Positions 1 to 14,976 of a stretch of 64,000 nt of DNA are shown piece by piece. Both the position numbers and the translations under genes were made by a program. Source of the stretch: SAR92 clade bacterium H231 (GTDB lineage Bacteria; Pseudomonadota; Gammaproteobacteria; Pseudomonadales; Porticoccaceae); NCBI GenBank assembly GCA_025153775.1, contig JAOALC010000002.1, positions 434,001 through 498,000 of the forward strand. Reading direction: 5' to 3'. The notes beneath the pieces are model-generated. The model searched no databases, was not told where the DNA came from, and saw only the letters and a list, made by a program, of their open reading frames with translations. Position 1 is the first letter of the stretch; each line of letters opens with the position of its first letter.

Positions 1-2037
1 CTCATCGAAATCAATATCATCGTCGTCATTGTTAGTGAGCAGCGCATGTTTAACGTTGACGGTGCCGCCAAACCATTCAATGCCATCATCCTGATTGCCA
101 TGAACCTGAACATAGTCAATCAGGGTGCCGTGACCAACTCCCTGAAGGGTCAGACCATTAATTTCATTGTTGGGTCCAGCGATCAGGCCGCCCTCAGCGA
201 TACGCACGTAACGGATAATACCGCTGTTGTCGGCTGGTACGTTGCCACCGTATTCCTGAACAAAGTCACCGCCTTCACCGAGGATATTGCACCAGCTTTC
301 ACCGTCGGCAAAACAGGCACCTGTTCCACCCTGACCATACTGTGGGGCGAAACCCTGGATCACAACACCGCCCCATTCGCCCATGCCATCGTAATCAGGA
401 TCAATAGAACTAAAAGTAATTGGGCTTGTGGCAGACCCATTGGCAATCAACTTGGACCCGCGAGTAACCAAAAGAACGCCATCTGAAAATGCGTTGATAT
501 TAACACCTGCACGAATGGTCAGTGTCACACCTGCCGCCTGAATGGCGTCCATTTCAGCCTGGGAAGTGATCTCCACATTACCAGAACCTACAGTCACCAC
601 TCCGTCAAGGCGATATTCAACACCAGCGACCATAGTGTAGTCCTGATCTACATTACCCTTGAGAGTACAGACTGTTTTAGACGAGTTACAGCTAGCAAAT
701 GATGCCTCTGTGGCAGTTTCCTCTGCGGCGACTGAACCGGGGATAGTCCAGCCAGCCCACCAGGCTACTGCTTCAGATGGGTCAACAGCACCGACAAAGT
801 TTGTTTCATCAAAGACAAATGAAGAGCCGTTGTCCTGTGCGGTGATAGCTGTTGCCGCGTCCAGGGAAGCTGCTGCATTAACAATAGCGTAGTTGCTGTC
901 GAAGCTAATGCCCTCTTCAATCACGCTGTCTGTAGAAACAGGCAGTTCTTTGTTAAATGCCACACCAGAAGTATCACAGATAAAATTATTCAAAGTGATT
1001 GGTGTATCAATCTTGGCCGTTGCGCTGTCGTTGTCGTGATCGGAATCATCGATACGGGCACAGGTCAGGTCGTAGCCAGTCACCGCAGAGTTATGGATAG
1101 CTGCAGTGACCGAACCGCGCAGACGCATACCAAACTCACCAGCGCTGTTAGCCGCGTCGCCGCCAATAATAGTGACATTAGCAATGACACCAGCAGTCTC
1201 TGGAGTATAGTCTTCGTCAGAAGAGTTAAGCTCGATACCGCGCGGGTCGTTAGAACCTACTGGTGTAGCATCAGGAGTCTGATTCTTGATAATCAGTGCA
1301 TACTGAATATTACCCTGATAACCCTCGTCAAAATCTATATCGTCATCGTCATTGTTAGTGAGCACAGCATATTTAACGTTAGCTGTACCGCCAAACCACT
1401 CAATGCCATCATCCTGATTACCATGAACCTGCACGTATTCAATTTCGGTACCATAGCCGACACCCTGAAGGGTCAGACCATTAATTTCATTGTTGGGCCC
1501 AGCGATCAGACCACCCTCAGCAATACGCACATAGCGGATATGGCCACTGTCATCAGCAGGCAAATTACCGCCGTATTCCTGAACAAAGTCACCGCCTTCA
1601 CCAAGGATATTGCACCAGCTTTCGCCGTCAGCAAAACAGGCGCCTGTTCCGCCCTGACCATACTGTGGGGCGAAACCCTGGATTACAACACCGCCCCATT
1701 CGCCCATGCCATCGTAATTTTCATCAGCAAGACTGCTAAAGGTAATTGGCTGCGCAGCTGTACCTATGGCTTCCAGCTTGGAGCCACGAGTTACCAACAG
1801 CACACCATCAGCAGCGCCGCGAACATCGGTACCTGGTTCAATTGTTAGAGTTACACCCTGGCTAACAATTAGATCCATCTCTGCCTGAGAGGAAATCTCT
1901 TTATTGCCTAAACCGACCTGAACTACACCGCTCAAAACATACTGGGTGCCTGAGGCCATGCTGTAGTCAGTATTAATGGTTCCTGTTACCACAGCCTGTG
2001 AACAGTCATCATTGAAGCTCACAAAGCTAGCTTCTGT
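1..2037 (-). repeat. Tandem duplication inside the lipoprotein gene (offset about 1323 bp)
   Basis: Positions 251-392 and 1574-1715 align with six mismatches in 142 bases by my count, an offset of 1323 bp or 441 codons. The similarity extends more loosely over both units and includes one codon-sized indel. Unit 1 covers roughly 712-2037, and unit 2 covers 1-711 and continues off the window. The very high local identity inside otherwise diverged units suggests recent duplication or gene conversion. Confidence 0.9.
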
Positions 2038-2211
2038 AACCGCAGCACAGAGGCCGGTGACAACATCTGTTGTATCAGTTACAGGAGCTGTAGTGTTGTT
2101 AGTGATATCTCCTGCAATTGTTACTGTGATATCTCCAGCGCTCTCGCTATCGCCGCACCCGGTTAGGGTTAGCGACGTGAGCAGACCAGCTGCTAAAAGT
2201 TTTGTCTTCAT
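1..2211 (-). CDS. Outer-membrane lipoprotein with two tandem ~441-residue units (partial, C-terminus off window)
   Basis: This is an open frame of 737 codons reading leftwards off the edge of the window. It starts at an ATG and has a short lipoprotein signal with lipobox LTGC (Cys19); Gly follows the Cys, which favours outer-membrane sorting. After a Thr-rich linker come two homologous units, the first from about residue 59 and the second from about residue 501. Each contains the motifs EWGGVVIQGFAPQYGQGG, NEINGLTLQGVG and DDGIEWFGGT, then an acidic NNDDDDIDFDE stretch. The pattern resembles right-handed beta-helix surface proteins; I recall similar proteins beside TonB receptors in marine bacteria, which needs checking. 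It lies 79 bp downstream of the TonB receptor on the same strand, so co-transcription and control by the same Pho box are likely. A substrate-capture or surface-binding role is inference. The plus-strand frames across it are shadows. Confidence 0.85.
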   Translation of the reverse strand, partial: MKTKLLAAGLLTSLTLTGCGDSESAGDITVTIAGDITNNTTAPVTDTTDVVTGLCAAVTEASFVSFNDDCSQAVVTGTINTDYSMASGTQYVLSGVVQVGLGNKEISSQAEMDLIVSQGVTLTIEPGTDVRGAADGVLLVTRGSKLEAIGTAAQPITFSSLADENYDGMGEWGGVVIQGFAPQYGQGGTGACFADGESWCNILGEGGDFVQEYGGNLPADDSGHIRYVRIAEGGLIAGPNNEINGLTLQGVGYGTEIEYVQVHGNQDDGIEWFGGTANVKYAVLTNNDDDDIDFDEGYQGNIQYALIIKNQTPDATPVGSNDPRGIELNSSDEDYTPETAGVIANVTIIGGDAANSAGEFGMRLRGSVTAAIHNSAVTGYDLTCARIDDSDHDNDSATAKIDTPITLNNFICDTSGVAFNKELPVSTDSVIEEGISFDSNYAIVNAAASLDAATAITAQDNGSSFVFDETNFVGAVDPSEAVAWWAGWTIPGSVAAEETATEASFASCNSSKTVCTLKGNVDQDYTMVAGVEYRLDGVVTVGSGNVEITSQAEMDAIQAAGVTLTIRAGVNINAFSDGVLLVTRGSKLIANGSATSPITFSSIDPDYDGMGEWGGVVIQGFAPQYGQGGTGACFADGESWCNILGEGGDFVQEYGGNVPADNSGIIRYVRIAEGGLIAGPNNEINGLTLQGVGHGTLIDYVQVHGNQDDGIEWFGGTVNVKHALLTNNDDDDIDFDE

Positions 2212-2290
2212 TTTTATGGTCCTATTTCAATGGATTTAAATTATGGAACTACTTTGGGTTCTCAAACTATTTACTAATGTCTAAAAGACG

Positions 2291-5200
2291 TCACAGCTGA
2301 TAGGTCAGAGACATATTTAAAGATTTGCCTACCTCATAAAGCTCGATCGTCCGATTATTCTGGGTGTAAGAAACTGCCTCATTGGTGAGGTTTTTAACTT
2401 TGACTTTTAATGTCCATCTCTCGGCGAGAATATTCTCGTAATTCAAGTCAACCAGGATTCTCCCTGATTCAACAACAGGACCCAGTGCAGCACCGCGCGC
2501 CACTCTATAGATTCTGTCGTCGAAGTGATTTACCAGTAGGGTTAGCTTCTGATCTGTGGGGTAATGGTCATAGCCGATCTGTAAATTGGCCAGGTATTCG
2601 GATTGCCCCTGCAATGGACGACCATCAGATCCAGCACCCTCCAGCTGCAGCGACTTGGCTGCAAGCGCTACTGAGGAATCAATGTAGGAAAAGTTACCGT
2701 TCAAGAATACACGGAAATCATCACTGTCAATCAGGGTGGTATTGAAGTCCAGCTCGATGCCATCTAAAACGGCAGAGCGCTGATTTCTAAAGGTAATGCC
2801 GACGGCAGCTGAACCAGATGCATCTGGAATAGCTCGCTCTACGGGATTGTCAATTTCCTTTCTAAAGAGGGCCAAAGATGCGCGGTTATCAGTACCAAAA
2901 TAATACTCAACGCGAAGATCTATATTATCAATTTCAGAAACCTTTAGATCTGGAGTGCCGAAGATAGGGTCGTCGGTCTGAGGGTCATAAGACTGAGATT
3001 CAGAACGCTCAATTAGGCCGGGGTATGAAACCGTTTGACTAAATCCAAAACGAACCTGGTACTCCTCCATTGCCCGCCAGGTGATATTGGCAGCAGGATA
3101 AATACCATCAGTCTCGAGATTACCAGTGTTACCGTTATTATTGGGGTAGCCTATATTTTGGCTAAACTCTTCGTATCTGGCGCCAATCTCAATATTCCAG
3201 TCTTCGCCAAATTCATTATCAATCATCATATAAAATGCCGTGACTTCTTCATCAGAAATATAAGCATCGGTCGAGGCTGTTGCTGGGCGCAGTCGAAATG
3301 CGTCCGCGGCAATATTGGGCACTGAGAGTAGAGCATCAATACCATTGGCGGTACTTAGACTTAACGGGGTATCACCCAGGCGGACACCAAATCGGTACAG
3401 ATCAACAGTCCTATCTTTGCTAGAGAGCAGGGTTCCCAGCTTTAGAGTGCTGTAGTTAGCATCACCCCATTCGGATGAAATTTTGTAGTCCAGGCCAAAG
3501 TCTTTACTGGTTTCATTGAGATCAGACCAACGGCGCTCAACGGAGGAAATGGCCAGCGCGTGATTGAGAGAGTAATACTGTCGACGGTCGGGCTCTAGAC
3601 GGTCAGTTTCAGAATAACCAACGCGCCAGTCCAAAACGCTGTCGTAACCAGCGGTCTGGAACTCTTTAAAGCCACTGAAGCTCTGGGAAAATAACTGCCG
3701 TTGCACATATTCAAGAACAGCTGCATCCAGAGCATTGTCCTCGACATTAATTGCCATGGTTTGACGGGTCACATCATCGGTAGAGCGCAGTAAAGTGGTC
3801 TTGGACAGAACTTCACCAGAGTCAAACTCATAGCCCACAACACCGTATCCCGACACTGAAACAGTATCTTTGGTGCGATTGTAGATACCATTTAAATCGC
3901 TGGGGTTGGATAGCTGTGCGTCACCACGGTAGCCAGTGCTTCGATCATAAGAGCCAGAGAAATAGTAGCCCAGTTCACCATTGCCGTATTCAAAGCGATC
4001 TCCGAAATCAGCATCAAAACCCACATCTGGATCGGCGGTTTCATCATTGATGTCGTAGTCAGGCTTAAAGGTTAAGAAGTAGGCCATAGCCACCGCCGGA
4101 TCAGTACAGATATCGGCCAGGCTTGGATCGCAGATAGTCAGGCTTCTGGCGCCATTAGTGGCTTGTAAAACACCAGAATGAACATTGCGCAAACCATTGT
4201 CGTAACCCAGCCACTCTCTATTACTGTTGCGATACTCTTGAATCTCGTCACCCGTAAACTCTGTATTCATACCCATTGATACAGATAGGGAGCCTGCACG
4301 CTCGTCGGGCAGCCCTTTGGTGTTTACTGCAATAGAGCCTCCGGTAGTAGACGCCAGTTGATCGGCAGAGAATGACTTTTGAACTTCGATAGTCTCAACA
4401 ATATTAGAAGGGAACAGATCTAGCTGAACATCCCTGCGCATTGGATCGGTACTGGGCATAAGAATGCCATTGAAGTTGGTGGCAATATATCGACCGTCAA
4501 GACCTCGCACATTGGCATATTTGCCGTCGGAGACACTGAGGCCCGCAATCCGGCCTATGGCTACAGCCACATCACTATCGCCAAAGCGCGCCAGCTGATC
4601 AGCATCCATGGCACTGACAATGGTCGTGGCATAGCGCTCAATATTTTCCGTTCCCCTGGTTGGGTTGAAAACACCTAGGGTAACTACCTCTTCAAAAGTA
4701 GGCGCGGGAATAATCGCCATCCTGTCAGAGGCAGGACGTTTCTTAATCAGCTTAAAGCCAGCGTAAACACCCAGGTCAGCGAAGACTCGTACTGAACTTG
4801 GGGCTGGCACTCTATAGTTTTCTTCAGTCACACTCACACTGTGTAATCCGCGAGGAACTTCTAGGGTGTAGACGCCCTCTTCATTGGTGAAGACTGTCAA
4901 CTGAAAATCAGATACTTCTACTGCAGCGCCCTCAATAGGCACGCCCGATGGAGAGGTGACCACGCCTGCAATAAACCCAGTAGCTTCAATGCCAGCCTTA
5001 AAGATTTGCTTTTTAACCACTGGCTCAACTTCTGGGTTTCTGCTGAAGACTGCTGATACTTCGACTTCGCCACCCTCTGGTACTTCGAAACTAACGGGAA
5101 TGGCAACATCGTCGTCGATCAGGTATAGCTTGTGTGGGCCGGGTGAAATGGAAGCCTGCACCAGACCTTTACCATCAGTCACACCAACAATCTCACCATC

Positions 5201-5329
5201 TACGGCCACTTTGATATGCCTGAGGGGCGCATCTTCGAGGAATACCAGCACAAAGGCTTCCTCCGCCGAAGCTACTGGCGCTAAAAGCGAAATCGCCAAT
5301 ACTAATAATCGAACCCATTTATTGGACAT
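2291..5329 (-). CDS. TonB-dependent outer-membrane receptor with N-terminal carboxypeptidase-regulatory-like domains
   Basis: The protein is 1012 residues. I chose the start at 5329, which opens a clear signal peptide (MSNKWVRLLVLAISLLAPVASA) and follows an AGGAAGGG-type ribosome site; 14 more codons are open upstream. After the signal come a PEGA-like beta domain (about residues 25-100) and a carboxypeptidase-regulatory-like domain (about 115-190). The plug follows, with the segment VRGLDGRYIATNFNGILMPS and TTGGSIAVNTKG. The rest is a long beta-barrel ending in SLNMSLTYQL. The layout fits the TonB-Xanth-Caul type of receptor for large or scarce ligands. A Pho box lies about 120 bp upstream and the duplicated lipoprotein follows, so I infer uptake of a phosphorus compound; the ligand cannot be read from the sequence. 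Confidence 0.93.
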   Translation of the reverse strand: MSNKWVRLLVLAISLLAPVASAEEAFVLVFLEDAPLRHIKVAVDGEIVGVTDGKGLVQASISPGPHKLYLIDDDVAIPVSFEVPEGGEVEVSAVFSRNPEVEPVVKKQIFKAGIEATGFIAGVVTSPSGVPIEGAAVEVSDFQLTVFTNEEGVYTLEVPRGLHSVSVTEENYRVPAPSSVRVFADLGVYAGFKLIKKRPASDRMAIIPAPTFEEVVTLGVFNPTRGTENIERYATTIVSAMDADQLARFGDSDVAVAIGRIAGLSVSDGKYANVRGLDGRYIATNFNGILMPSTDPMRRDVQLDLFPSNIVETIEVQKSFSADQLASTTGGSIAVNTKGLPDERAGSLSVSMGMNTEFTGDEIQEYRNSNREWLGYDNGLRNVHSGVLQATNGARSLTICDPSLADICTDPAVAMAYFLTFKPDYDINDETADPDVGFDADFGDRFEYGNGELGYYFSGSYDRSTGYRGDAQLSNPSDLNGIYNRTKDTVSVSGYGVVGYEFDSGEVLSKTTLLRSTDDVTRQTMAINVEDNALDAAVLEYVQRQLFSQSFSGFKEFQTAGYDSVLDWRVGYSETDRLEPDRRQYYSLNHALAISSVERRWSDLNETSKDFGLDYKISSEWGDANYSTLKLGTLLSSKDRTVDLYRFGVRLGDTPLSLSTANGIDALLSVPNIAADAFRLRPATASTDAYISDEEVTAFYMMIDNEFGEDWNIEIGARYEEFSQNIGYPNNNGNTGNLETDGIYPAANITWRAMEEYQVRFGFSQTVSYPGLIERSESQSYDPQTDDPIFGTPDLKVSEIDNIDLRVEYYFGTDNRASLALFRKEIDNPVERAIPDASGSAAVGITFRNQRSAVLDGIELDFNTTLIDSDDFRVFLNGNFSYIDSSVALAAKSLQLEGAGSDGRPLQGQSEYLANLQIGYDHYPTDQKLTLLVNHFDDRIYRVARGAALGPVVESGRILVDLNYENILAERWTLKVKVKNLTNEAVSYTQNNRTIELYEVGKSLNMSLTYQL

Positions 5330-5450
5330 CTTTAACCCTTCCTCGAGTCTCTTAACTAAAAAAGCCAACACAGGCTGGCACCAAGATCTGTCTGAAGATC
5401 TTCAATAAGGAAAAATTAACAGGCTAAAATTACGCTGGTATGAATTATTT

Positions 5451-5468
5451 ATGACGGTAATGTGACAG
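5451..5468 (-). promoter_or_regulatory. Pho box upstream of the TonB receptor
   Basis: On the minus strand the site reads CTGTCACATTACCGTCAT, two CTGTCAT-like halves separated by 4 bp. The match to the PhoB consensus is good. The -10 at the expected distance (TACCAG, 5435-5440) is only moderate. Confidence 0.75.
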
Positions 5469-5511
5469 AGAATACTGATCTCTGGGCAAGCGGTTATCAG
5501 GTATAAAAAAA

Positions 5512-5527
5512 GGAGGCCAGAGCCTCC
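5512..5527. terminator. Rho-independent terminator between phoU and the TonB receptor
   Basis: GGAGGC-CAGA-GCCTCC is flanked by A and T runs on both sides, so it can work in either direction. It ends the pst-phoU transcript and separates it from the Pho-boxed receptor operon. Confidence 0.9.
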
Positions 5528-5557
5528 TTTTTTTATATTGTGAGCAACGAATAATCA

Positions 5558-6238
5558 CTACTGGTGACGAATATCTTTTCCTTTTACAACAAAGACAATC
5601 TGCTCACAGAGATTTTTCGCATGGTCGCCAATTCGCTCAAGGGAGCGAATAACCCACAGCACATTGATCACTCGGCTAATGCTTCTTGGGTCTTCCATCA
5701 TATAGGTAACCAGCTCGCGCAATGCAGTTTTGTACTCGAGGTCGATCTGCTTATCTTCCTCCAGTGTTCGCATAGCTGCGTCCACGTCAAAGCGAGCAAA
5801 GGCATCCAGTGCATTGGCAAGCATGCGCGTCACTGAGGCGCCCATATGGCGCACTTCAGTGTAGCCCTCAGCCGAGCCACTCTGCTCTGCAAGAATAATA
5901 GCGTGATTGGCAATTTTTTTGGCTTCGTCTCCAATGCGCTCCAGATCATTGACCGCCTTGGTCACCATCATCACCAGTCGCAAATCACTGGCAGCCGGTT
6001 GGCGGCGCGCGATAATTAAGATGCAGGCTTCGTCTATATCCACCTCCATGCTGTCGATACTTTGATCTTCAGAGATGACCTCCTCGGCCAGTTTACTGTC
6101 AGCATCAGTGACTGCCTTGACAGCATTCTGTAGCTGCTGCTCAACTTTGCCGCCCATCTCCATCAACCGAGTGCGAATCTCTTCGAGCTCCTCGTCGAAC
6201 TGCTTCATAATGTGATTTTCGAATGACATCTTCGCCAT
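5558..6238 (-). CDS. phoU: Phosphate transport/signalling regulator PhoU
   Basis: This 226-residue protein is last in the pst operon. It is all-helical and built from two PhoU repeats, with repeat motifs IARRQPAASDLRLVMMV and NVLWVIRSLERIGDHAKNLCE. The ERIGD motif occurs in both halves (LERIGDEAKKIANH and LERIGDHAKNL) and is the expected metal-binding signature. PhoU links the Pst transporter to PhoR and represses the Pho response when phosphate is plentiful. I chose the ATG at 6238 because GGAG sits 7 bases before it; an ATG four codons upstream overlaps that ribosome site. It lies 44 bp after pstB. Confidence 0.97.
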   Translation of the reverse strand: MAKMSFENHIMKQFDEELEEIRTRLMEMGGKVEQQLQNAVKAVTDADSKLAEEVISEDQSIDSMEVDIDEACILIIARRQPAASDLRLVMMVTKAVNDLERIGDEAKKIANHAIILAEQSGSAEGYTEVRHMGASVTRMLANALDAFARFDVDAAMRTLEEDKQIDLEYKTALRELVTYMMEDPRSISRVINVLWVIRSLERIGDHAKNLCEQIVFVVKGKDIRHQ

Positions 6239-6282
6239 ATTATTCTCCATTTGGCCTAGTAATTTAGGCTGCTCTTAAAGTC

Positions 6283-7272
6283 TTAACCAAATCGACCTGT
6301 GATATAGGCTTCAGTCAACTGATGCTCTGGCATGGTAAATACTTGCTCTGTAGGGTTTACCTCAATCAGCTTGCCAAGGTGGAAGTAAGCTGTGCGGTGA
6401 GATACTCGTGCGGCCTGCTGCATACTGTGAGTCACAATAGCAATGGTGAAGTTCTCGCTGAGCTCTTCGATCAGCTCTTCAATTTTTGCCGTGGCAATGG
6501 GGTCTAGCGCTGAGCAGGGCTCATCCATCAAAATAACTTCCGGGCTAACCGCGATAGCTCTGGCAATACAGAGCCTTTGCTGCTGACCACCAGATAACCC
6601 TGTACCCGGCTGATGCAGGCGCTCTTTCACCTCTTCCCAGAGGCTGGCTTTGCGCAGACTGTTTTCAACAATCTCATCCAGATCAACTCTGCTGTCGGCC
6701 AAACCATGAATCTTGGGACCATAGGCCACATTTTCATAAATTGATTTGGGGAAGGGGTTAGGTTTTTGAAACACCATGCCTACGCGCGCACGCAGCTCGA
6801 CCACATCCAGTTTTGGGGCATAGAGGTTTTCGCCATCCATACAGATATCACCCTCAACTCGGCAGCCCTCTACGGTGTCATTCATGCGATTTAGGGTGCG
6901 CAAAAAAGTTGACTTACCACAGCCTGAGGGGCCAATCATAGCCATCACTTCATTTTTGGCTATATCAATACTCACATTGTGAATCGCCTGCTTGTCGCCG
7001 TAGTAGACATCGATGTTGCGCATGGTCATTTTAGCATTATCGCTAAAGCTCTTACCCACAGTAATCTGATGATCATCTATATCCAGACTCTGGCCGGCTT
7101 TGAACTGAGGCGCAACCGCCTTGCGGGTTTTAGCTACTGCCTTTTTAGCTTTGGGCTCCGTCTTCTTGACCTTAGGTACCGCCGACTTGGCCTTGGCTAC
7201 CTTTTTAGGGGCGGACTTTGATGCTGCTTTAGACGCAGCCTTTGCAGGCTTAGCTGTATCTGCTGGACTCAT
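6283..7272 (-). CDS. pstB: Phosphate ABC transporter ATP-binding protein PstB with Lys/Ala-rich N-terminal extension
   Basis: The protein is 329 residues, about 70 longer than typical PstB. Residues 7-55 or so are a histone-H1-like tract of Lys, Ala, Pro and Ser with repeated AKPAK/PKAKK-type words. A normal PstB follows: Walker [10 protein letters not shown] (114-122), the Q-loop FQKPNPFP, signature LSGGQQQR, Walker B VILMDEP and the H-loop [10 protein letters not shown]. It powers high-affinity phosphate import as a dimer on PstA/PstC. The start is supported by AGGA 8 bases upstream, and pstA ends 13 bp before it, so the extension is probably translated. What the basic tail does is unknown; binding to nucleic acid, polyphosphate or the membrane are possibilities only. 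Confidence 0.96.
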
Positions 7273-7285
7273 AATTTATTCCTGT

Positions 7286-8566
7286 TTACCAACGGCGTTC
7301 AAGACGCTTTCGCAGCCAAACGGCCGATGTATTCATAATAATTAAAAAGGTTAGCAGCACCATAATGGCCGCGGAGGTCTTTTCAATAAAGGCTCTCTCC
7401 GGACTGTCAGCCCAGAGGAAAATTTGTACCGGCAGCACTGTAGCAGGATCCGTAAAGCTACCTGGAACATCAACAATAAAGGCTACCATGCCAATCATCA
7501 GCAGTGGGGCTGTTTCGCCCAGTGCCTGAGCCATACCAATAATCGCACCGGTCAACATGCCGGGCAGAGCCAGCGGCAACACATGGTGCAAAACCATCTG
7601 ATACTTGGAGGCTCCCATACCCAGGGCCGCTTCTCGGATCGAGGGTGGCACCGACTTAATAGCCGCACGGCTGGTAATAATAATGGTTGGCAGTGTCATC
7701 AATGTGAGTACCAGGCCACCGACAATGGGCACAGACCTGGGCACATGAAAGAAGTTGATAAAAATTGCCAGTCCCAGCAGGCCAAAAATAATCGAAGGCA
7801 CCGCGGCCAGATTATTAATATTGACCTCAATAAAGTCAGTCCATTTGTTTTTAGGCGCAAACTCTTCCAGATAAATAGCCGCCGAGACACCGATAGGGAA
7901 AGACAGTATCAGAGTCAGCACCAAAGTCAGCAGTGAACCCATCACTGCACCGCGGATACCGGCCTGCTCAGGCTCTCGAGAATCGCCACGGGTAAACAGA
8001 TTAGTATTTAGCTGCAAGCGTATTAGCCCCTGCTCATGCAACTGGTCGATCCAGACCACCTGTTTATCAGACAGCCGCGCTGCATAGGCTTCGCCATCCA
8101 GCCAGGACTTGTAATAGGTATCTATATCATCATCAGCCAACAGCCAGATTGACTCGGTTGTATTAAGTAGCTGTGGATTGGCCAGCAGACGGTCTTTTAG
8201 GTCAAACCCTGCTCCATTGCTGAGTAGTCCATTCAATCGGCGCTTATCTCTGCGCCCAGAGACATCGGTAAATTTTTCGCGCAGTGCGACTTTGGGCACG
8301 GCATCCCAATTACCCATCATCAGTTGCTCTGGATCGGATAGATTCTCAATGCCCAGCAGATCCTGGTCGTAGCTGACATTGAGCTTGATGTAAGTCGCCT
8401 GGAATGCCCCATGCCCTTTTCCGATAATATCGACAAATAGCACGGCGACCGCCGCCAAGCCTATAAATATAGCCACACGCCCACACCATTGAAACCTGGC
8501 TTCAGCGCGGTTACGGCGAGTCAGAGAGCGCTTTATTTTGGATAAATTATCCGCTGACTTATTCAT
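7286..8566 (-). CDS. pstA: Phosphate ABC transporter permease PstA
   Basis: This 426-residue inner-membrane permease has one N-terminal membrane segment, a large periplasmic region of roughly 150 residues that is longer than in E. coli PstA, and the C-terminal BPD_transp_1 core. The EAA loop REAALGMGASKYQMVLHHVL, which contacts PstB, is intact. The start at 8566 is preferred over a frame open 12 codons further up because GAGAA lies just before it. It overlaps the end of pstC by 8 bases, which suggests translational coupling. It forms the channel with PstC. Confidence 0.95.
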   Translation of the reverse strand: MNKSADNLSKIKRSLTRRNRAEARFQWCGRVAIFIGLAAVAVLFVDIIGKGHGAFQATYIKLNVSYDQDLLGIENLSDPEQLMMGNWDAVPKVALREKFTDVSGRRDKRRLNGLLSNGAGFDLKDRLLANPQLLNTTESIWLLADDDIDTYYKSWLDGEAYAARLSDKQVVWIDQLHEQGLIRLQLNTNLFTRGDSREPEQAGIRGAVMGSLLTLVLTLILSFPIGVSAAIYLEEFAPKNKWTDFIEVNINNLAAVPSIIFGLLGLAIFINFFHVPRSVPIVGGLVLTLMTLPTIIITSRAAIKSVPPSIREAALGMGASKYQMVLHHVLPLALPGMLTGAIIGMAQALGETAPLLMIGMVAFIVDVPGSFTDPATVLPVQIFLWADSPERAFIEKTSAAIMVLLTFLIIMNTSAVWLRKRLERRW

Positions 8567-9947
8567 ACTGTTCTCGATATTTCTTAACAATGTGCAGAGC
8601 AAAGATATTTAGCAATAGGGTGACGACAAACAGCATCAGACCCAGGGCAAAGGCAGCCAGGGTTTTTGGACTATCAAACTCCTGGTCACCGGTTAACAGG
8701 GTAACTATCTGCACTGTCACAGTGGTTACTGAATCCAGAGGGTTGGCTGTCAGTTTGGCCGCCAGCCCAGCTGCCATCACAACAATCATGGTCTCGCCAA
8801 TGGCCCTGGATACTGCCAGCATAATGCCGCCAACAATACCTGGCAGCGCAGCGGGAATAACTACTCTACGCACGGTCTCTGAATGGGTAGCGCCCATGGC
8901 CAGCGAACCATCGCGCATAGACTGAGGCACGGCAGTAATCACATCGTCTGCCAGTGACGAGATAAAGGGAATAATCATAATGCCCATTACGCCACCGGCC
9001 GCCAGCGCACTCTCGGAAGACACCGTCAGCCCAAAGCTGCTACCTAGATCGCGCAGATAAGGTGCCACTGTCAGGGCTGCAAAAAATCCATAAACCACAG
9101 TGGGAATGCCGGCCAGCACTTCTAGGGCCGGCTTGGCAAAGGTGCGAATTCTCTTGCTGGCATACTCTGCCAAATAGATCGCTGACATTAGCCCCACTGG
9201 CACCGCCACCAGCATAGCCACCGCTGACACCAGCAATGTGCCTACAAATAACGGCACAGCGCCAAAACTGCCTGAAGAGCCTACCTGATCTTCGCGAATA
9301 GCGGTCTGTGGGCTCCAGTCCAGACCAAAGACAAAATCGGTCACAGGAACGGAGCGGAAAAACTGAATGGACTCAAACAACACAGAGAGCACGATGCCCA
9401 GGGTAGTGAAGATAGCCAGACAGGCACAGGCCAGCAGCAGGTTCTGCATAACTTTTTCAACTGCCGGACGAGCTCGAAAGCCGGAGGCGACTCGGCTTAA
9501 ACCTAAAACCAGTCCAGCTGCAGAGAACACCAGTGCCAACAATGTCAGGGACCAGCGAGATATCTGCCGCAGAGAGACCATATGGTCAGCTGCAGCAAGC
9601 AGCGGCCCAGTCTGCCCGGCGCGGGGCAATACACCATCGGCAAGATTGCCAATTTTATTTAATAACAGGTTGTAACTGGCAGTATCTGAGGGTGCTATCT
9701 CGGCGGCGGCCGCGCCTATCACCATGCTGTTAATCACCGGATCATCAAAAATCATCCACAGGGCTAGCAGGATAAGCGACGGCAGCGCACACCAGAATGC
9801 CGTGTGCATTCCATAGTAGGAGGGCAGAGAATGGAGCTTGCGAATACCACCCAGGGGGGCGGCAATAGCCAGAGAGCGTCCGCGGCCCAGATAGAAGGCC
9901 AGTACACCCAAGCCAAATAGCAAAAGTAATATATTAGTCGCTTGCAT
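8559..9947 (-). CDS. pstC: Phosphate ABC transporter permease PstC
   Basis: The protein is 462 residues with several membrane segments. The C-terminal permease core carries the EAA-type loop RDGSLAMGATHSETVRRVVI. As in PstA, an extended N-terminal half (two membrane segments plus a soluble stretch) precedes the core; this long form of PstC is common in marine and pseudomonad-type bacteria. The start codon has only a distant AAAGGA upstream. It follows pstS across a stem-loop, which could lower expression relative to the binding protein. Confidence 0.95.
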   Translation of the reverse strand: MQATNILLLLFGLGVLAFYLGRGRSLAIAAPLGGIRKLHSLPSYYGMHTAFWCALPSLILLALWMIFDDPVINSMVIGAAAAEIAPSDTASYNLLLNKIGNLADGVLPRAGQTGPLLAAADHMVSLRQISRWSLTLLALVFSAAGLVLGLSRVASGFRARPAVEKVMQNLLLACACLAIFTTLGIVLSVLFESIQFFRSVPVTDFVFGLDWSPQTAIREDQVGSSGSFGAVPLFVGTLLVSAVAMLVAVPVGLMSAIYLAEYASKRIRTFAKPALEVLAGIPTVVYGFFAALTVAPYLRDLGSSFGLTVSSESALAAGGVMGIMIIPFISSLADDVITAVPQSMRDGSLAMGATHSETVRRVVIPAALPGIVGGIMLAVSRAIGETMIVVMAAGLAAKLTANPLDSVTTVTVQIVTLLTGDQEFDSPKTLAAFALGLMLFVVTLLLNIFALHIVKKYREQYE

Positions 9948-9979
9948 AGAGCTTGCGGTGTCCTTTAGAAACGAAAAAA

Positions 9980-9998
9980 CCCGGCTCTTTGAGCCGGG
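9980..9998 (-). terminator. Stem-loop between pstS and pstC (partial terminator/attenuator)
   Basis: CCCGGCTC-TTT-GAGCCGGG is followed on the minus strand by a T-run. It sits between two genes of one operon, so it probably allows partial read-through. That would give more PstS than permease, as in other binding-protein operons. Confidence 0.8.
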
Positions 9999-10022
9999 CG
10001 GTACTGTGACAAAATACCTGCA

Positions 10023-11078
10023 TTATTTCAATGCTTCGTTGCCCGTCATTGGCGTTAGAGAGCGAGTGCTCTTAGCCATAGCTCTGCGCTCTTCAAGAGG
10101 CAGTGGAATCATGCCTTTTTCAGCCAAATAGCCATCTTCGCCCCAGGCGCGCTCACTAGTAAACTCATTGAGGTAGCCTTCAATACCTGGCACAACACCC
10201 ACATGGGCTTTTTTGACATAGAAGTAAAGCGGGCGTGAGATCGGGTATGACTTATCGGCAATTGACTCAAAGGTTGGCTCAACAGATTCAATATTTGCAC
10301 CCTGTACCTTATCGGCATTTTGATCTAGAAAACTGAAGCCGAAGATACCCAGTGCTGCCGGATTAGCCTGCAGCTTCTGAACAATCAGATTGTCATTTTC
10401 ACCGGCTTCAATGTAAGCGCCGTCTTCGCGGATAGTGTGACACAGAGCCTTGTAGGCACTCTTGTCGGTTTTCTTCATTGCCTTGATCCAGGCAAACTTT
10501 TTACAGCCGCCTTCCAAAGCCAACTCAGCAAATGCATCGCGAGTACCAGAGGTCGGGGGAGGCCCCAGTACTTCGATTGCTGTATCTGGCAATGCTGAGT
10601 TGACCTGGTTCCAAGTCGTGTAAGGATTGTCGATGAGCTCACCCTCTGCTGCACCTGGTACCTGGGCAGCCAGTGCCAGAAAGATATCTTTGCGGCTCAA
10701 CTCTACAGGCGCTGATTCGACTGAGTTGGCAATAACAATACCATCGTAGCCAACCTGAACTTCGATCACTTCCCTGACGCCATTTGTCTGGCATTTCTTA
10801 AACTCACTGCTCTTCATACGTCTTGAAGAGTTGGTAATATCCGGGTAGTTAGTACCAACACCGGAACAGAATAGCTTCATGCCGCCACCGGAGCCGGTTG
10901 ATTCAATTTTGGGAGTCAATTTTCCACTGGCGCGACCATAGCGCTCAGCCACAACTGTTGAAAAAGGATATACCGTAGAAGATCCTACGACTTCTATTGA
11001 CTCTCGAGCCATAGAAGAGGTTGCACTGATGGAAGCCATAGCAAAAACAATGGCTGGAATAAATTTAAGCTGGGTCAT
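10023..11078 (-). CDS. pstS: Periplasmic phosphate-binding protein PstS
   Basis: This 351-residue protein starts at 11078, directly after GGAGG. It opens with a signal peptide cleaved near SSMA/RES, and the mature protein begins with IEVVGSSTVYPFST. Phosphate-binding loops are visible: GSSTVYPF, ESTGSGGGMKLFCSG and PPTSGTRDAF. It captures phosphate in the periplasm for PstCA. It is the first gene of the pst-phoU operon and has a Pho box with a well-spaced -10 directly upstream. A longer open frame extends upstream to 11174 but would run through the promoter, so it is rejected. Confidence 0.97.
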   Translation of the reverse strand: MTQLKFIPAIVFAMASISATSSMARESIEVVGSSTVYPFSTVVAERYGRASGKLTPKIESTGSGGGMKLFCSGVGTNYPDITNSSRRMKSSEFKKCQTNGVREVIEVQVGYDGIVIANSVESAPVELSRKDIFLALAAQVPGAAEGELIDNPYTTWNQVNSALPDTAIEVLGPPPTSGTRDAFAELALEGGCKKFAWIKAMKKTDKSAYKALCHTIREDGAYIEAGENDNLIVQKLQANPAALGIFGFSFLDQNADKVQGANIESVEPTFESIADKSYPISRPLYFYVKKAHVGVVPGIEGYLNEFTSERAWGEDGYLAEKGMIPLPLEERRAMAKSTRSLTPMTGNEALK

Positions 11079-11156
11079 AACAACCTCCAAAGGCTGGCAC
11101 ACAGATGTGCTATTAATTGATTCAGTTTTAGAACGGGAACACTGTATTAAAGTTAT

Positions 11157-11174
11157 GTGACAGAAATATGACAA
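11157..11174 (-). promoter_or_regulatory. Pho box of the pstS operon
   Basis: On the minus strand it reads TTGTCATATTTCTGTCAC. A -10-like TACAGT (11141-11146) follows after 10 bp, the usual geometry for PhoB-activated promoters where the box replaces the -35. Confidence 0.88.
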
Positions 11175-11210: not shown

Positions 11211-11244
11211 CTGTCATATTAGTGTCATATTTCTTTCATATATT
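11211..11244 (+). promoter_or_regulatory. Tandem Pho box and -10 of the porin gene
   Basis: CTGTCAT (11211), GTGTCAT (11222) and CTTTCAT (11233) are three halves each spaced by 4 bp. A -10 TATATT (11239-11244) lies 10 bp after the second half. A further box-like CTGTCATATTTCTGCAAC sits at 11255-11272, so the region holds two PhoB-binding segments. Confidence 0.85.
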
Positions 11245-11319
11245 CATCATGTTGCTGTCATATTTCTGCAACCTGAACTGGGCCGTAGCCCAATGAATTA
11301 AACTTTTTGGGGATTGAAC

Positions 11320-12285
11320 ATGAACAAACTAGCACTTTCTGCTGCTGTAGCTGCCACTCTGGGGCTAGCGTCCAACAGCTTCGCGGACGGCCCGATCGAT
11401 GGCACAATTTATGGCAAGATCAATGTCTCTGTGGTCAATACAGATCAAAATTCATCTGATAAATGGAAGCTTAATAGCAATGCATCGCGCCTGGGTGTTA
11501 AGGGTAAAACCAAGATCACCGATGGTCTCTACGCTGTGTATAAAGCAGAATTTGAAATGTGCGTCGACGATGGTGACTGTAAGGGCCAGACGTTTACGCA
11601 GCGCAATATTATGGGCGGTATTAGAGGCAGCTTTGGTACAGTCTGGGCAGGCAAGCATGACTCACCCACCAAACTGGCACAGAAAAAGATCGATTTGTTT
11701 AATGATCTCGAAGGTGATATCAAGAATACCTTTGAAGGCGAAAACCGTGTTTCCAATATTATTGCTTATACCAGCCCCACGGTAAGTGGCTTCTCTGGCA
11801 CTGTTGCAATGATCCCGGGAGAGGGTGCAGATGTTGATGGCGATGGTATTGATGACACTGGCCTGACGGATGGAATGTCCTACTCTCTAAGCTACAGTAA
11901 AGATAACCTCTATCTTGCACTGGCCAGCGATAAGGATGTAGATAGCCAGGATCTGGTGCGTATGGTTATGCAGTACAAAATTGATAATCTAAAACTGGGT
12001 GCCATGTTCCAGCAAAACGAAGATAATCAGGGTACCAAGGATGAATCTGGATATTTTGTAAGCGCTGCCTATAAAATCGATAAGACCACGTTGAAAGCTC
12101 AGTATGGCTTTATCGAAGACGATGTAGATGGCGACGAAGAGGAAACACTGTCCCTGGGTGCTGATTACAAGCTGAGCAAAAACACCAAGGCCTATATTTT
12201 CTATACAGACAATACGGATTCTGAGGTGGACTCATCAGATGACGAAGACAGCTCATTTGGTGTAGGCATGGAACACAAGTTCTAA
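11320..12285 (+). CDS. Pho-regulated outer-membrane porin (Porin_4 type)
   Basis: This 321-residue porin has a signal peptide ending ASNSFA, mature start DGPIDGTIYGKINVSV and C-terminal Phe (GVGMEHKF), as expected for a trimeric 16-stranded porin. The start at 11320 has GGGGAT upstream; a TTG two codons earlier is rejected. Position and the Pho box make it the functional counterpart of phosphate-starvation porins, yet it is strongly acidic. The predicted loop at residues 171-179 is DVDGDGIDD, a calcium-loop-like motif. A loop near residues 75-82 carries a Cys pair (CVDDGDC). Whether phosphate, a cation-bridged phosphoester or something else passes is not decidable here. Confidence 0.9.
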   Translation: MNKLALSAAVAATLGLASNSFADGPIDGTIYGKINVSVVNTDQNSSDKWKLNSNASRLGVKGKTKITDGLYAVYKAEFEMCVDDGDCKGQTFTQRNIMGGIRGSFGTVWAGKHDSPTKLAQKKIDLFNDLEGDIKNTFEGENRVSNIIAYTSPTVSGFSGTVAMIPGEGADVDGDGIDDTGLTDGMSYSLSYSKDNLYLALASDKDVDSQDLVRMVMQYKIDNLKLGAMFQQNEDNQGTKDESGYFVSAAYKIDKTTLKAQYGFIEDDVDGDEEETLSLGADYKLSKNTKAYIFYTDNTDSEVDSSDDEDSSFGVGMEHKF

Positions 12286-12372: not shown

Positions 12373-12876
12373 ATGAATTCCACAGATACGAAACCAGGTT
12401 ATGGCGTTGCAGTAATTTCCGCAATGCTGCTCTCCGGGGCGGCAAGCAGTAGCTGTGACTTTGATACTGATGATGCAGATGGGCCTGATTTTCTCGATAA
12501 AATTATTGAATGTGAGAAACAGCAGAGCTCTCGGGATAACAGTGAAGGAGGCTCCAAAGCTAGTAGCTCAGTTGAGGTAACCAAGCTCTATGGCGAGGGT
12601 TCACTTACCGCCTCGGGCATTGTTGAGCGCCCCGTGGCTGCGCCGGGAACCCTGAGTCACTATGCTAAAAAAAGCTTTGTAGCGCGCCAGCCCTACTCTC
12701 TGCGACCAGATGCTAAATTCGAAGAATCAGTCACCATAGCGATTCAAAAGCTGCATCTTGAGATGGCCCATTACTGCGCCAGAGGCTGGGATATCCAGCG
12801 CCAGTGGACAGAGGCCAATAGCCAGCAACAGGGTGATTTTTTTCTACACTACCAGTTTCGCTGCACTGAGACCTAA
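12373..12876 (+). CDS. Small exported protein of unknown function
   Basis: The protein is 167 residues with a good ribosome site (AAGGAG, 6 bases before ATG). A hydrophobic stretch at residues 11-24 ending GAASSSC could be a signal; Cys28 is not in a canonical lipobox. An acidic DTDDADGPD segment and a Ser-rich linker follow. The C-terminal half (EESVTIAIQKLHLEMAHYC) looks folded and has two Cys. I do not recognise a family. It lies 90 bp past the porin terminator and converges on phoR. Confidence 0.7.
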   Translation: MNSTDTKPGYGVAVISAMLLSGAASSSCDFDTDDADGPDFLDKIIECEKQQSSRDNSEGGSKASSSVEVTKLYGEGSLTASGIVERPVAAPGTLSHYAKKSFVARQPYSLRPDAKFEESVTIAIQKLHLEMAHYCARGWDIQRQWTEANSQQQGDFFLHYQFRCTET

Positions 12877-12891
12877 CAGAGATATCGCATC

Positions 12892-14193
12892 CTAGTCAGT
12901 CTTAGTAGGAAAGCTACAGATAAAAACAGCTCCCTGCCCCAGGCGACTGTTGATCTGCAACTCACCCCCGCAACTGGTCACCGCATGTTTGACGATCGCT
13001 AAGCCTAAGCCGCTGCCACCAGTGTCGGAGTTTCGGCTGTTATCTCCGCGATAAAAGCGCTCGGTCAGCCTTGGTATTTCCAGGGGATCTATTCCCACAC
13101 CGTCATCTGCAATAGCAATGGAGACTGCGGCATTGGGTTCAGTTACACTAATACTAATTGTTGCACCCTGAGGGTTGTGGCGTACCGCGTTAAACACCAG
13201 ATTACCCAGAGCACTGCGCAAGCTACTGGGCTCGACACTGAGGCTGATAGCCTCGCAGCAATCTAGCTCAAGGCTGTGTCTGCCGCCGCTGAGCTGCTCG
13301 GCTTCAACCATAATCTCAGATAATAGATTAAATAGATTTGTTGACGGATAGCTCTGCTGAGCATCCGACCCTCCATCACCCTCATACTCGGCCCCCTCAA
13401 AACGGGACAACAAAATTAAATCATCGGCCAGTGACTGCATGCGACTGACCTGGGTGGCCATTTGCTTAAAGGCTCTGTCGGCTATAGCTGTATTACTAGG
13501 CAGGTCTTGCAATGTCTCTATATAGCCGCGTATTACCGTCAGTGGGGTACGCAACTCATGGGATATATTGCCGACAAACTCTTTGCGCACAGTTTCAAGA
13601 TTGTTCATGCGAGTGATATCGGCAATGACTAGAACAATCTCGTTATCGCCAAAATGGGACGCGGTAAATAGCAACAGTCTGCCCTCTTGACTGGAGGACG
13701 GCATCTGAATTGAGCCTATAAATTCAGGCTGATGAATATAGCTAACAAACTCAGGATCGCGAATTAAATTAATAATAGCGCTGCCTCTGTCTGAGGACCT
13801 TAAGCCCAGCAGCCTCTTGGCCGAGCTGTTCCACCAGTCAAGGGTAAGGTCACTGCGCAGCACCAGAACACCCTCTTCCAAAGCCTCGGTAACCCGAGTG
13901 ACCCGTTTGATGGTATGACGCATCTTTTCAAGAGCACGACGGTGACGACGACGCTGGCGATTGAGGGTGTCGCTGATTTCACCCCAGACGCCGCCGGCAT
14001 CAGGGGGAATACCCCGCATACCTTTGTCGATCCAATCAAATAATTTAGAGATAATGCTAAAGGTCCAGAGCAGATAACAGCCCACACCTATAAAGATGAC
14101 TTCAAAGGTATAGCCCAGACTCCAGCCAAAGAACAGGGTAAATAGCCCGACCAGAACTATACGCCATATCTCTGTAGACATTCCTGGCCGCAA
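12892..14193 (-). CDS. phoR: Phosphate regulon sensor histidine kinase PhoR
   Basis: The 433-residue protein has two N-terminal membrane segments (about 9-48), a basic HAMP-like linker, a PAS domain (about 100-195) and a HisKA domain with His212 in GNISHELRTPLTVIRGY. The ATPase follows, with N-box NLVFNAVRHN and G-boxes DDGVGID and GGSGLGLAIVKH. It autophosphorylates on low-phosphate signalling through PhoU/Pst and phosphorylates PhoB. I keep the TTG start at 14193 because GAGG lies 9 bases before it; the ATG at 14181 is the alternative but has its purine run directly against it. It lies 41 bp after phoB on the same strand. Confidence 0.96.
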   Translation of the reverse strand: MRPGMSTEIWRIVLVGLFTLFFGWSLGYTFEVIFIGVGCYLLWTFSIISKLFDWIDKGMRGIPPDAGGVWGEISDTLNRQRRRHRRALEKMRHTIKRVTRVTEALEEGVLVLRSDLTLDWWNSSAKRLLGLRSSDRGSAIINLIRDPEFVSYIHQPEFIGSIQMPSSSQEGRLLLFTASHFGDNEIVLVIADITRMNNLETVRKEFVGNISHELRTPLTVIRGYIETLQDLPSNTAIADRAFKQMATQVSRMQSLADDLILLSRFEGAEYEGDGGSDAQQSYPSTNLFNLLSEIMVEAEQLSGGRHSLELDCCEAISLSVEPSSLRSALGNLVFNAVRHNPQGATISISVTEPNAAVSIAIADDGVGIDPLEIPRLTERFYRGDNSRNSDTGGSGLGLAIVKHAVTSCGGELQINSRLGQGAVFICSFPTKTD

Positions 14194-14234
14194 TGGATTT
14201 GACCTCTTTAAAGTGCATAATCAACTGCACCCTA

Positions 14235-14936
14235 TTATGCAGTCTGTATCTGGGTCGAGAAACGATACCCGGCTCCGCGCACAGTCTGCACATAGTTATC
14301 ATGACCTGCAACCGAAATTGCTTTGCGCAAACGGCGAATATGGACATCCACCGTGCGCTCATCCAGATAGACATTGCCACCCCAGACATAGTCCAGAATC
14401 TGGTCTCTGGAATAGACGCGCTCCTGATGGGTGAGGAAGAATTGCAGCAGTCGATATTCTGTAGGCCCTAAATTGACCGGTTGACTACCAATATTCACAC
14501 GGTGTCCGATAGGGTCAAACACCATATCCCCCACATGAATGGGCTCTTTGAGCTCTTCCCGACCAATACGGCGCAGCACCGCCTTAACCCTGGAAATAAG
14601 CTCGCGGGGAGAAAAAGGCTTGGCGATATAGTCATCGGCGCCTGCATCCAGCCCAGAGATCTTGTTGTCCTCCTCTGCTTTGGCGGTCAGCATAATCACC
14701 GGCAACTTTTCAGTCAGCTCATCGCGTTTCAGTCGGCGCAGCAGCTCCAGACCCGTGGTACCGGGCATCATCCAATCCAGCAGAACCAGATCTGGGTAGC
14801 GGTCAATAATAACGGCATGGGCCTGTTGGGCATTCTCCGCCTGCAGCACATTGTAGTCAGCGGCCTCTAGGGCAATGCTAAGCATATCCCTGATTGCCGC
14901 TTCGTCATCGACCAGCAAAATCGTATGCTTGGGCAT
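14235..14936 (-). CDS. phoB: Phosphate regulon response regulator PhoB
   Basis: This 233-residue OmpR-family regulator has acidic pocket Asp10/Asp11, phospho-acceptor Asp54 (LVLLDWMMPG), the switch Lys in KPFSPREL, and a C-terminal winged helix (LGPTEYRLLQFFL, RTVDVHIRRLRKAI). It binds Pho boxes and activates the phosphate genes. A longer frame starts at 14957, but the -10 deduced from the upstream Pho box would put transcription start only a few bases before that codon, so 14936 is favoured. PhoB boxes upstream imply autoregulation. Confidence 0.96.
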   Translation of the reverse strand: MPKHTILLVDDEAAIRDMLSIALEAADYNVLQAENAQQAHAVIIDRYPDLVLLDWMMPGTTGLELLRRLKRDELTEKLPVIMLTAKAEEDNKISGLDAGADDYIAKPFSPRELISRVKAVLRRIGREELKEPIHVGDMVFDPIGHRVNIGSQPVNLGPTEYRLLQFFLTHQERVYSRDQILDYVWGGNVYLDERTVDVHIRRLRKAISVAGHDNYVQTVRGAGYRFSTQIQTA

Positions 14937-14976
14937 AATATTGGTCTCATCAATCATTTCTTTATGCTTCCATTAA

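Follow-up and report, generated by a model that had tools for sequence, protein, structure and literature searches.

In SAR92 clade bacterium H231, a gene for a TonB-dependent receptor and a gene for a lipoprotein lie directly behind the phosphate genes pst-phoU, raising the questions of what such a pair does at this position and whether it belongs to any described system. We analyzed the pair in a 64,000-nucleotide stretch (hereafter the window; positions 434001-498000 of contig 2 of the 2.93-Mb genome). An earlier note on this DNA had proposed a phosphorus-acquisition system. As judged from sequence, a phosphorus-responsive receptor-lipoprotein system is well supported, because the pair has a Pho box, a pst neighborhood, and homology to the lipoprotein ElpS, and because the box goes with the pair across a genus; the kinship with this described family was missed by the note. 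What is new is that genomes of one SAR92-clade genus differ at the site behind phoU, which carries this cassette, a dissimilar one, or neither of the two.

A receptor and a lipoprotein behind pst-phoU

Open reading frame (ORF) calls, NCBIfam matches, and scans for hairpins and boxes gave the minus-strand order pstS-pstC-pstA-pstB-phoU, hairpin, Pho box, receptor, 79-bp spacer, and lipoprotein (Table 1). This order bore out the claims of the earlier note that receptor and lipoprotein lie on one strand 79 bp apart, behind a 7-4-7 Pho box and a terminator that insulates them from pst-phoU. The extent of 1 to 5468 given there needed correction: its upper limit coincides with the edge of the Pho box and not with a gene end, and the lipoprotein extends beyond the window. 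The hairpin between phoU and the cassette was absent from the list of a consensus terminator scan, presumably because its T run is paired within the stem. No terminator hairpin was recognizable in the spacer, and receptor and lipoprotein probably share one transcript. In DNA of the same genome, the 3' side of the lipoprotein gene is followed by a second strong hairpin (z -6.3) and then a GH81 glucanase-like gene.

The receptor ORF spans 2291-5371 (1026 aa), and the ATG at 5329 is its likely start, since a signal peptide begins there with GGAAGGG upstream. An AlphaFold2 model (predicted local distance difference test score, pLDDT, 87.1; predicted template modeling score, pTM, 0.73) contained two beta domains ahead of the plug, at residues of about 23-95 and 104-190, agreeing with the two extra N-terminal domains of the note; Pfam recognized only the second (CarboxypepD_reg, PF13620, at 134-196 of the 1026-aa ORF). 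The full lipoprotein, read into DNA of the same genome, has 934 aa from the ATG at 2211, and its signal peptide carries an LTGC lipobox by eye (MKTKLLAAGLLTSLTLTGC).

The pair is of the ElpS-receptor kind

The first unit of the window's lipoprotein aligned with an ElpS-type reference (locus L212) at 33% identity over 419 aa (expectation value, E, 4e-41). We selected L212 by LAGC at residues 17-20, Asn at 38, and synteny rather than by name. Both residue features are described for ElpS (PMC2996285), and, counted from a GTG start, they occurred at 4 of 34 Caulobacteraceae loci and at none of the other 30. Because L212 combines them with a downstream TonB receptor followed by gspD, gspE, and gspF, we consider it ElpS or very near kin. 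The receptors of L212 and the window aligned piecewise; the best pieces covered 159 aa (36% identity) and 348 aa (28%). Among 79 named loci encoding related lipoproteins, 67 had a same-strand receptor no more than 1.5 kb away, with both gene orders represented (41 and 26), and the family of a Phenylobacterium locus had matches in 70 of 149 genomes. The homology, the lipobox, and the receptor neighbor at kin loci together identify the window pair as a known kind, the ElpS-receptor pair.

Caulobacter crescentus ElpS (cc0170) is reported to be made and released at low phosphate and, by proteinase K evidence, to lie on the outer face of the outer membrane; its gene adjoins those for the TonB receptor cc0171 and for type II secretion (PMC2996285). 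The window pair thus resembles ElpS and cc0171 in its homologous, lipobox-bearing lipoprotein, its adjacent TonB receptor, and its link to phosphate starvation. The Caulobacter-type locus has a single unit, the lipoprotein gene first, a receptor without a Pfam N-terminal domain, and type II secretion neighbors, whereas the window cassette has two units, the receptor gene first with two N-terminal beta domains, a pst-phoU neighbor, and a Pho box before the receptor. Type II secretion genes also follow the pair at the alphaproteobacterial loci L110, L117, L137, L150, and L152, at L132 of Phenylobacterium, and at L133 of Luteimonas. They do not adjoin the window cassette, which lies between pst-phoU and GH81 (three secretin matches were found elsewhere); they are a feature of the Caulobacter arrangement and not of all relatives. 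Gene order was also accompanied by a difference in the N-terminal part of the receptor: 175-329 residues preceded the conserved VRG motif in receptor-first pairs (22 of 27 rows with the motif) versus 28-123, with one at 185, in lipoprotein-first pairs (44 of 53 rows usable, a few spurious long ORFs included).

Two further systems invite comparison. By description, the window pair is like the Bacteroidetes lipoproteins FI, FII, and FIII of Flavobacterium johnsoniae, which are reported to be induced by low phosphate, with FI and FII beside TonB receptors induced likewise; they share 31-36% identity with the low-phosphate Caulobacter lipoprotein, and one ElpS-like lipoprotein made up 18.7% of the phosphate-starved Flavobacterium exoproteome, so that proteins of this type can be very abundant at low phosphate (PMC8115612). 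The SusCD/PusCD pairs, a TonB receptor with an N-terminal extension and a surface lipoprotein, are candidates for working in a similar way. The CarboxypepD-like domain (PF13620) of the window receptor is a feature common to them, but the window lipoprotein is an ElpS-family beta-helix with no SusD match in Pfam.

The Pho box and probable phosphate regulation

Pho boxes were scored as two 7-mers 4 bp apart (14 positions) against the E. coli-type consensus, a pattern that may miss other boxes. The receptor box, read 5468-5451, has 2 mismatches of 14. Sites with at most 3 mismatches numbered 17 in the window compared with 6.5 (standard deviation 2.6) in shuffled sequence, and 29 sites with at most 2 mismatches were found genome-wide. 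When we kept only sites outside ORFs of at least 150 aa and with a same-strand ATG or GTG ORF start within 330 bp, those remaining preceded phoB (two), a porin gene at 11314 (two), pstS, the receptor, and one oxidoreductase-like gene. By this strict consensus, Pho targets are very few, and the pair is one of them. The oxidoreductase-like gene, labeled by eye, has its 12/14 site 168 bp upstream (G000:C3:228316-228333, L080), which may be a chance match. The porin, of Gram-negative type (11314-12285, plus strand), is divergent from pstS, has overlapping Pho boxes at 11211-11272 with scores as high as 13/14, and is a possible phosphate-starvation porin.

Upstream of receptor orthologs, scores were 11-14 in 16 of the 20 fragments holding the 5' region and 10 in the other four. 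Four of the 79 named loci had too little upstream DNA to scan (and L088 was mis-scored owing to a broken receptor frame); of the remaining 75, 14 had a box of at least 12/14, where two control patterns gave 1 and 0, and 27 had one of at least 11/14, where the controls gave 5 and 2. In the fetched DNA, pst/phoU or phoB genes lay near cassette relatives at 20 of 79 loci, and by hand count 35 of 79 had one of these genes or a box scoring 11/14 or more. The expectation in the earlier note that homologous pairs lie in phosphorus loci is thus borne out only in part, by these loci and boxes; other loci, such as those of Poribacteria, show no such link. From the box, we infer that the pair is made at low phosphate under PhoB.

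One site, two cassettes, within a single genus

We surveyed the site behind phoU in one SAR92-clade genus. Of 50 genomes, 40 had phoU, and 37 of these were fetched and joined by the window's own, giving 38 sites, many of them from fragmented assemblies (G095 and G254 were left out). In type A the receptor comes first, as in the window; in type B a single-unit ElpS comes first, followed by a shorter receptor. Thirteen sites were type A, with both genes seen in ten and early contig ends in three (G263, G091, and G079, counted as type A from receptor sequence only). Type B occupied nine sites, two of them with a small ORF intervening after phoU (G255 and G010). Another 13 held neither directly behind phoU and instead had GST directly, GH81-like sequence, or other ORFs (G088, with only the start of GH81-like sequence, was counted here), and three were unreadable because contigs ended too soon (G076, G258, and G082).

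No site that could be read held both types, and none of 31 matching genomes had both intact; G063, in addition to its type A fragments, had a single weak match (33% over 89 aa) that contains a stop. In some genomes of the genus, the only relative encoded is a distant single-unit one with 31-38% identity, which in G021, G029, G010, and G078 lies behind phoU as lipoprotein and then receptor, with an upstream Pho box scoring 12-14. The genus is thus a natural experiment, in which relatives, some 94% identical around the site, hold A, B, or neither at a Pho-controlled place.

The Pho box went with the cassette. Counting only cassettes directly behind phoU (leaving out G255 and G010), a box of at least 11/14 lay within 450 bp after phoU at 18 of 20 cassette sites compared with 1 of 13 others (Fisher p 3e-6), and one of at least 12/14 at 15 of 20 compared with 0 of 13.

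Probable exchange of the cassette between lineages

The state of the site (A, B, or neither) required at least 8 changes on a tree of the left flank (PstB, PhoU) and at least 7 on a tree of the right flank (dxs, GST, ispA), each with 24 genomes. The state was nevertheless clustered, as shuffled labels gave values as low in only 6 (left) and 0 (right) of 200 trials. These results indicate that inheritance and switching both occur. In both flank trees, G048, a type A genome, is nested within B genomes. Its identity to G029, of type B, is 93.9% through the end of phoU and 94.4% beyond the cassette, and no blastn alignment over 150 bp was found between these flanks.

Synonymous divergence (dS) told a similar story. 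Between the window's genome (G000) and G048, dS was 0.51 for the receptor and 0.61 for the lipoprotein, compared with 2.10 for pstB, 1.55 for dxs, 2.63 for GST, and 2.08 for ispA, with phoU and GH81 saturated. Codon bias is unlikely to cause the low cassette values, because the same genes gave 1.79 and 2.77 between G000 and G072. On a smaller scale, G072 and G084 differed by 0.09 in the cassette and 0.23-0.73 in the flanks. The best reading is that the window's cassette type moved between lineages, in either direction, by horizontal in-place replacement, which suggests that these bacteria exchange their phosphorus gateway as a unit. Taken further, the site may act as a cargo slot under Pho control. 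Two ElpS-receptor cassettes that diverged anciently, and that have opposite gene orders and differing N termini on their receptors, would replace each other there through homologous recombination acting on the flanks, and a single step would then change the phosphorus compound that a species can use, or the phage that can enter it; we judge this extended proposal evenly poised between right and wrong. The listings of the literature searches showed no account of the pair in marine gammaproteobacteria, nor of cassette exchange beside phoU.

The lipoprotein is built of beta-helix units with conserved acidic residues

The lipoprotein consists of two copies of one unit, which is a right-handed parallel beta-helix in a model of a single copy (pLDDT 92.5), and the central repeat of the gene was 88.6% identical over 781 bp, in accord with the duplicated beta-helix of the earlier note. 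We chose 51 of the 79 named loci for alignment A3 and 31 for A2, leaving out L165 and L166, which have stop codons. Across the 52 aligned sequences, E156, D218, D219, E222, D240, D241, D244, and E278 were invariant and D171 and E193 nearly so. Residues D171, E193, D218, and D240 are spaced 22-25 residues apart, each just ahead of successive strands, and can be read as an acidic ladder on the helix, which might bind polyanions through calcium bridges. By analogy with ElpS, the lipoprotein is probably on the outer face of the cell.

By hand count, the 79 related proteins comprised 32 with one unit (some truncated), 40 with two, 6 with three, and one split gene. In a quick tree, units grouped by lineage with no single old split between first and second units; they split separately in the window's genus, in another genus, in a set of Halieaceae-type genera, and singly elsewhere. 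The two units of the window protein are 88-100% identical in their middle blocks and 55-78% at their ends. This lineage-wise grouping and near-identical middle suggest gene conversion or repeated duplication (L003:15407-18211 and orthologs).

Neither the lipoprotein sequence nor its alignment had a significant match when searched against the PDB; NCBIfam had no model for the unit, and Pfam gave none beyond a weak Beta_helix match in 1 of the 52 members. By Foldseek, the unit shares its overall fold class with the pectin-lyase-like right-handed beta-helices AlgG and AlgE4, the best PDB match being the alginate epimerase AlgG (E 6e-4, low template modeling score, TM-score), but among the 50 matches listed such proteins differ from it, with 6-14% identity and TM-scores of at most 0.37.

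Proposed role and alternatives

We lean toward a PhoB-controlled ElpS-type receptor cassette that captures a polyanion at the surface, hands it over, and imports it, in a slot filled by horizontal in-place exchange. At low phosphate, PhoB would turn on receptor and lipoprotein together. The surface beta-helix lipoprotein would bind a phosphorus-bearing polyanion with its acidic ladder, perhaps through calcium, and pass it to the adjacent TonB receptor, which would pull the cargo into the periplasm, where PhoA- or PhoD-type phosphatases and Pst would complete phosphorus use. The genome has one match to PhoA and two to PhoD, which fits this last step; PhoX was not found. Species would fill the slot behind pst-phoU with one of two unlike ElpS-receptor cassettes, or with neither. 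Since the Pho-boxed porin probably supplies free phosphate, a TonB receptor makes most sense for cargo too large for the porin. In a marine clade, the cargo of this receptor bears on who can use dissolved organic phosphorus.

Several observations weigh against this proposal. At 59 of the 79 related loci, the fetched DNA held no pst/phoU/phoB gene, and the Poribacteria loci show no phosphorus link. The genes for PhoA and PhoD lack a recognizable Pho box. In Caulobacter, cc0171, unlike elpS, is reported to be expressed in both rich and poor media; phosphatase activity did not change when elpS was deleted, and a shift to poor medium brought no observed change in intracellular phosphate (PMC2996285). 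In the genus survey, a reversed-pattern control scored 11 or higher at 5 of 19 sites with a cassette and at 1 of 13 without; this control is not independent, because it has the CTGTC core in common with true boxes. In a tree-based test, 6 of 7 independent pairs agreed (sign test median p 0.125, range 0.031-0.125), and with this weaker result the association of box and cassette rests partly on related genomes.

Some of the same Caulobacter results bear on another explanation, in which the lipoprotein is an extracellular helper that raises secreted phosphatase activity, as proposed for ElpS, with the receptor importing something else or the freed product. Overexpression of elpS is reported to have raised alkaline phosphatase activity in the supernatant with ElpS itself having none (PMC2996285), but the deletion result and the receptor pairing at most loci in both orders, which points to a receptor partner, make this explanation unlikely in our judgment. 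We regard it as very improbable that the pair serves uptake of beta-glucan or another glycan with a coincidental phosphate link. The GH81-like gene directly downstream fits such a role, as does a fold common to glycan-active enzymes with AlgG as its best match, but the Pho box goes with the cassette, a strong hairpin separates the pair from the GH81-like gene, and in G058, G090, G043, and G088, where Pho scores were 8-10, phoU is followed by GH81-like sequence with no cassette. The hairpin and these cassette-free sites also led us to reject GH81 as part of the system.

Surface receptors are common phage targets, and the cassettes appear to swap in place, as would be expected if the pair formed a phosphate-stress surface layer or shield (for adhesion or for evasion of phages or competitors) whose swaps reflect escape from receptor-using phages. 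A TonB-dependent barrel with a plug implies active import, however, nutrient supply is in keeping with Pho control and with the location at pst, and phage-escape exchange would be compatible with an import role anyway, so that we hold a shield to be improbable and prefer import of a captured polyanion.

Features of the locus and neighboring genes

Table 1. Features of the cassette and its surroundings, in window coordinates
Feature	Position	Strand	Basis
phoU, pstB, pstA, pstC, pstS; left flank of the cassette site	5558..11174	-	NCBIfam
Probable terminator hairpin with A and T tracts, between phoU and cassette	5502..5537		16 pairs, -21.2 kcal/mol, z -6.3
Pho box CTGTCAC-ATTA-CCGTCAT, 12/14, upstream of receptor	5451..5468	-	consensus scan
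TonB-dependent receptor, 1012 aa: signal peptide, two N-terminal beta domains, plug, barrel	2291..5329	-	Pfam, AlphaFold2
79-bp spacer between receptor and lipoprotein	2212..2290	-	hairpin z -0.3
ElpS-family lipoprotein, two tandem beta-helix units; 593 bases more past the left edge	1..2211	-	
First beta-helix unit (modeled); invariant acidic residues on successive coils	697..2064	-	alignment A3, 52 sequences
phoR and phoB, probable regulators	12892..14957	-	NCBIfam; two overlapping Pho boxes before phoB

The GH81 glucanase-like gene adjoining the cassette (L003:10868-15325) is itself present or absent among relatives. PstC and PstA (8559-9947 and 7286-8602, minus strand) have approximately 160-190 residues ahead of the stretch matching permease models. 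Between the porin and phoR, an ORF of 167 aa (12373-12876, plus strand) had no Pfam match at E 0.01.

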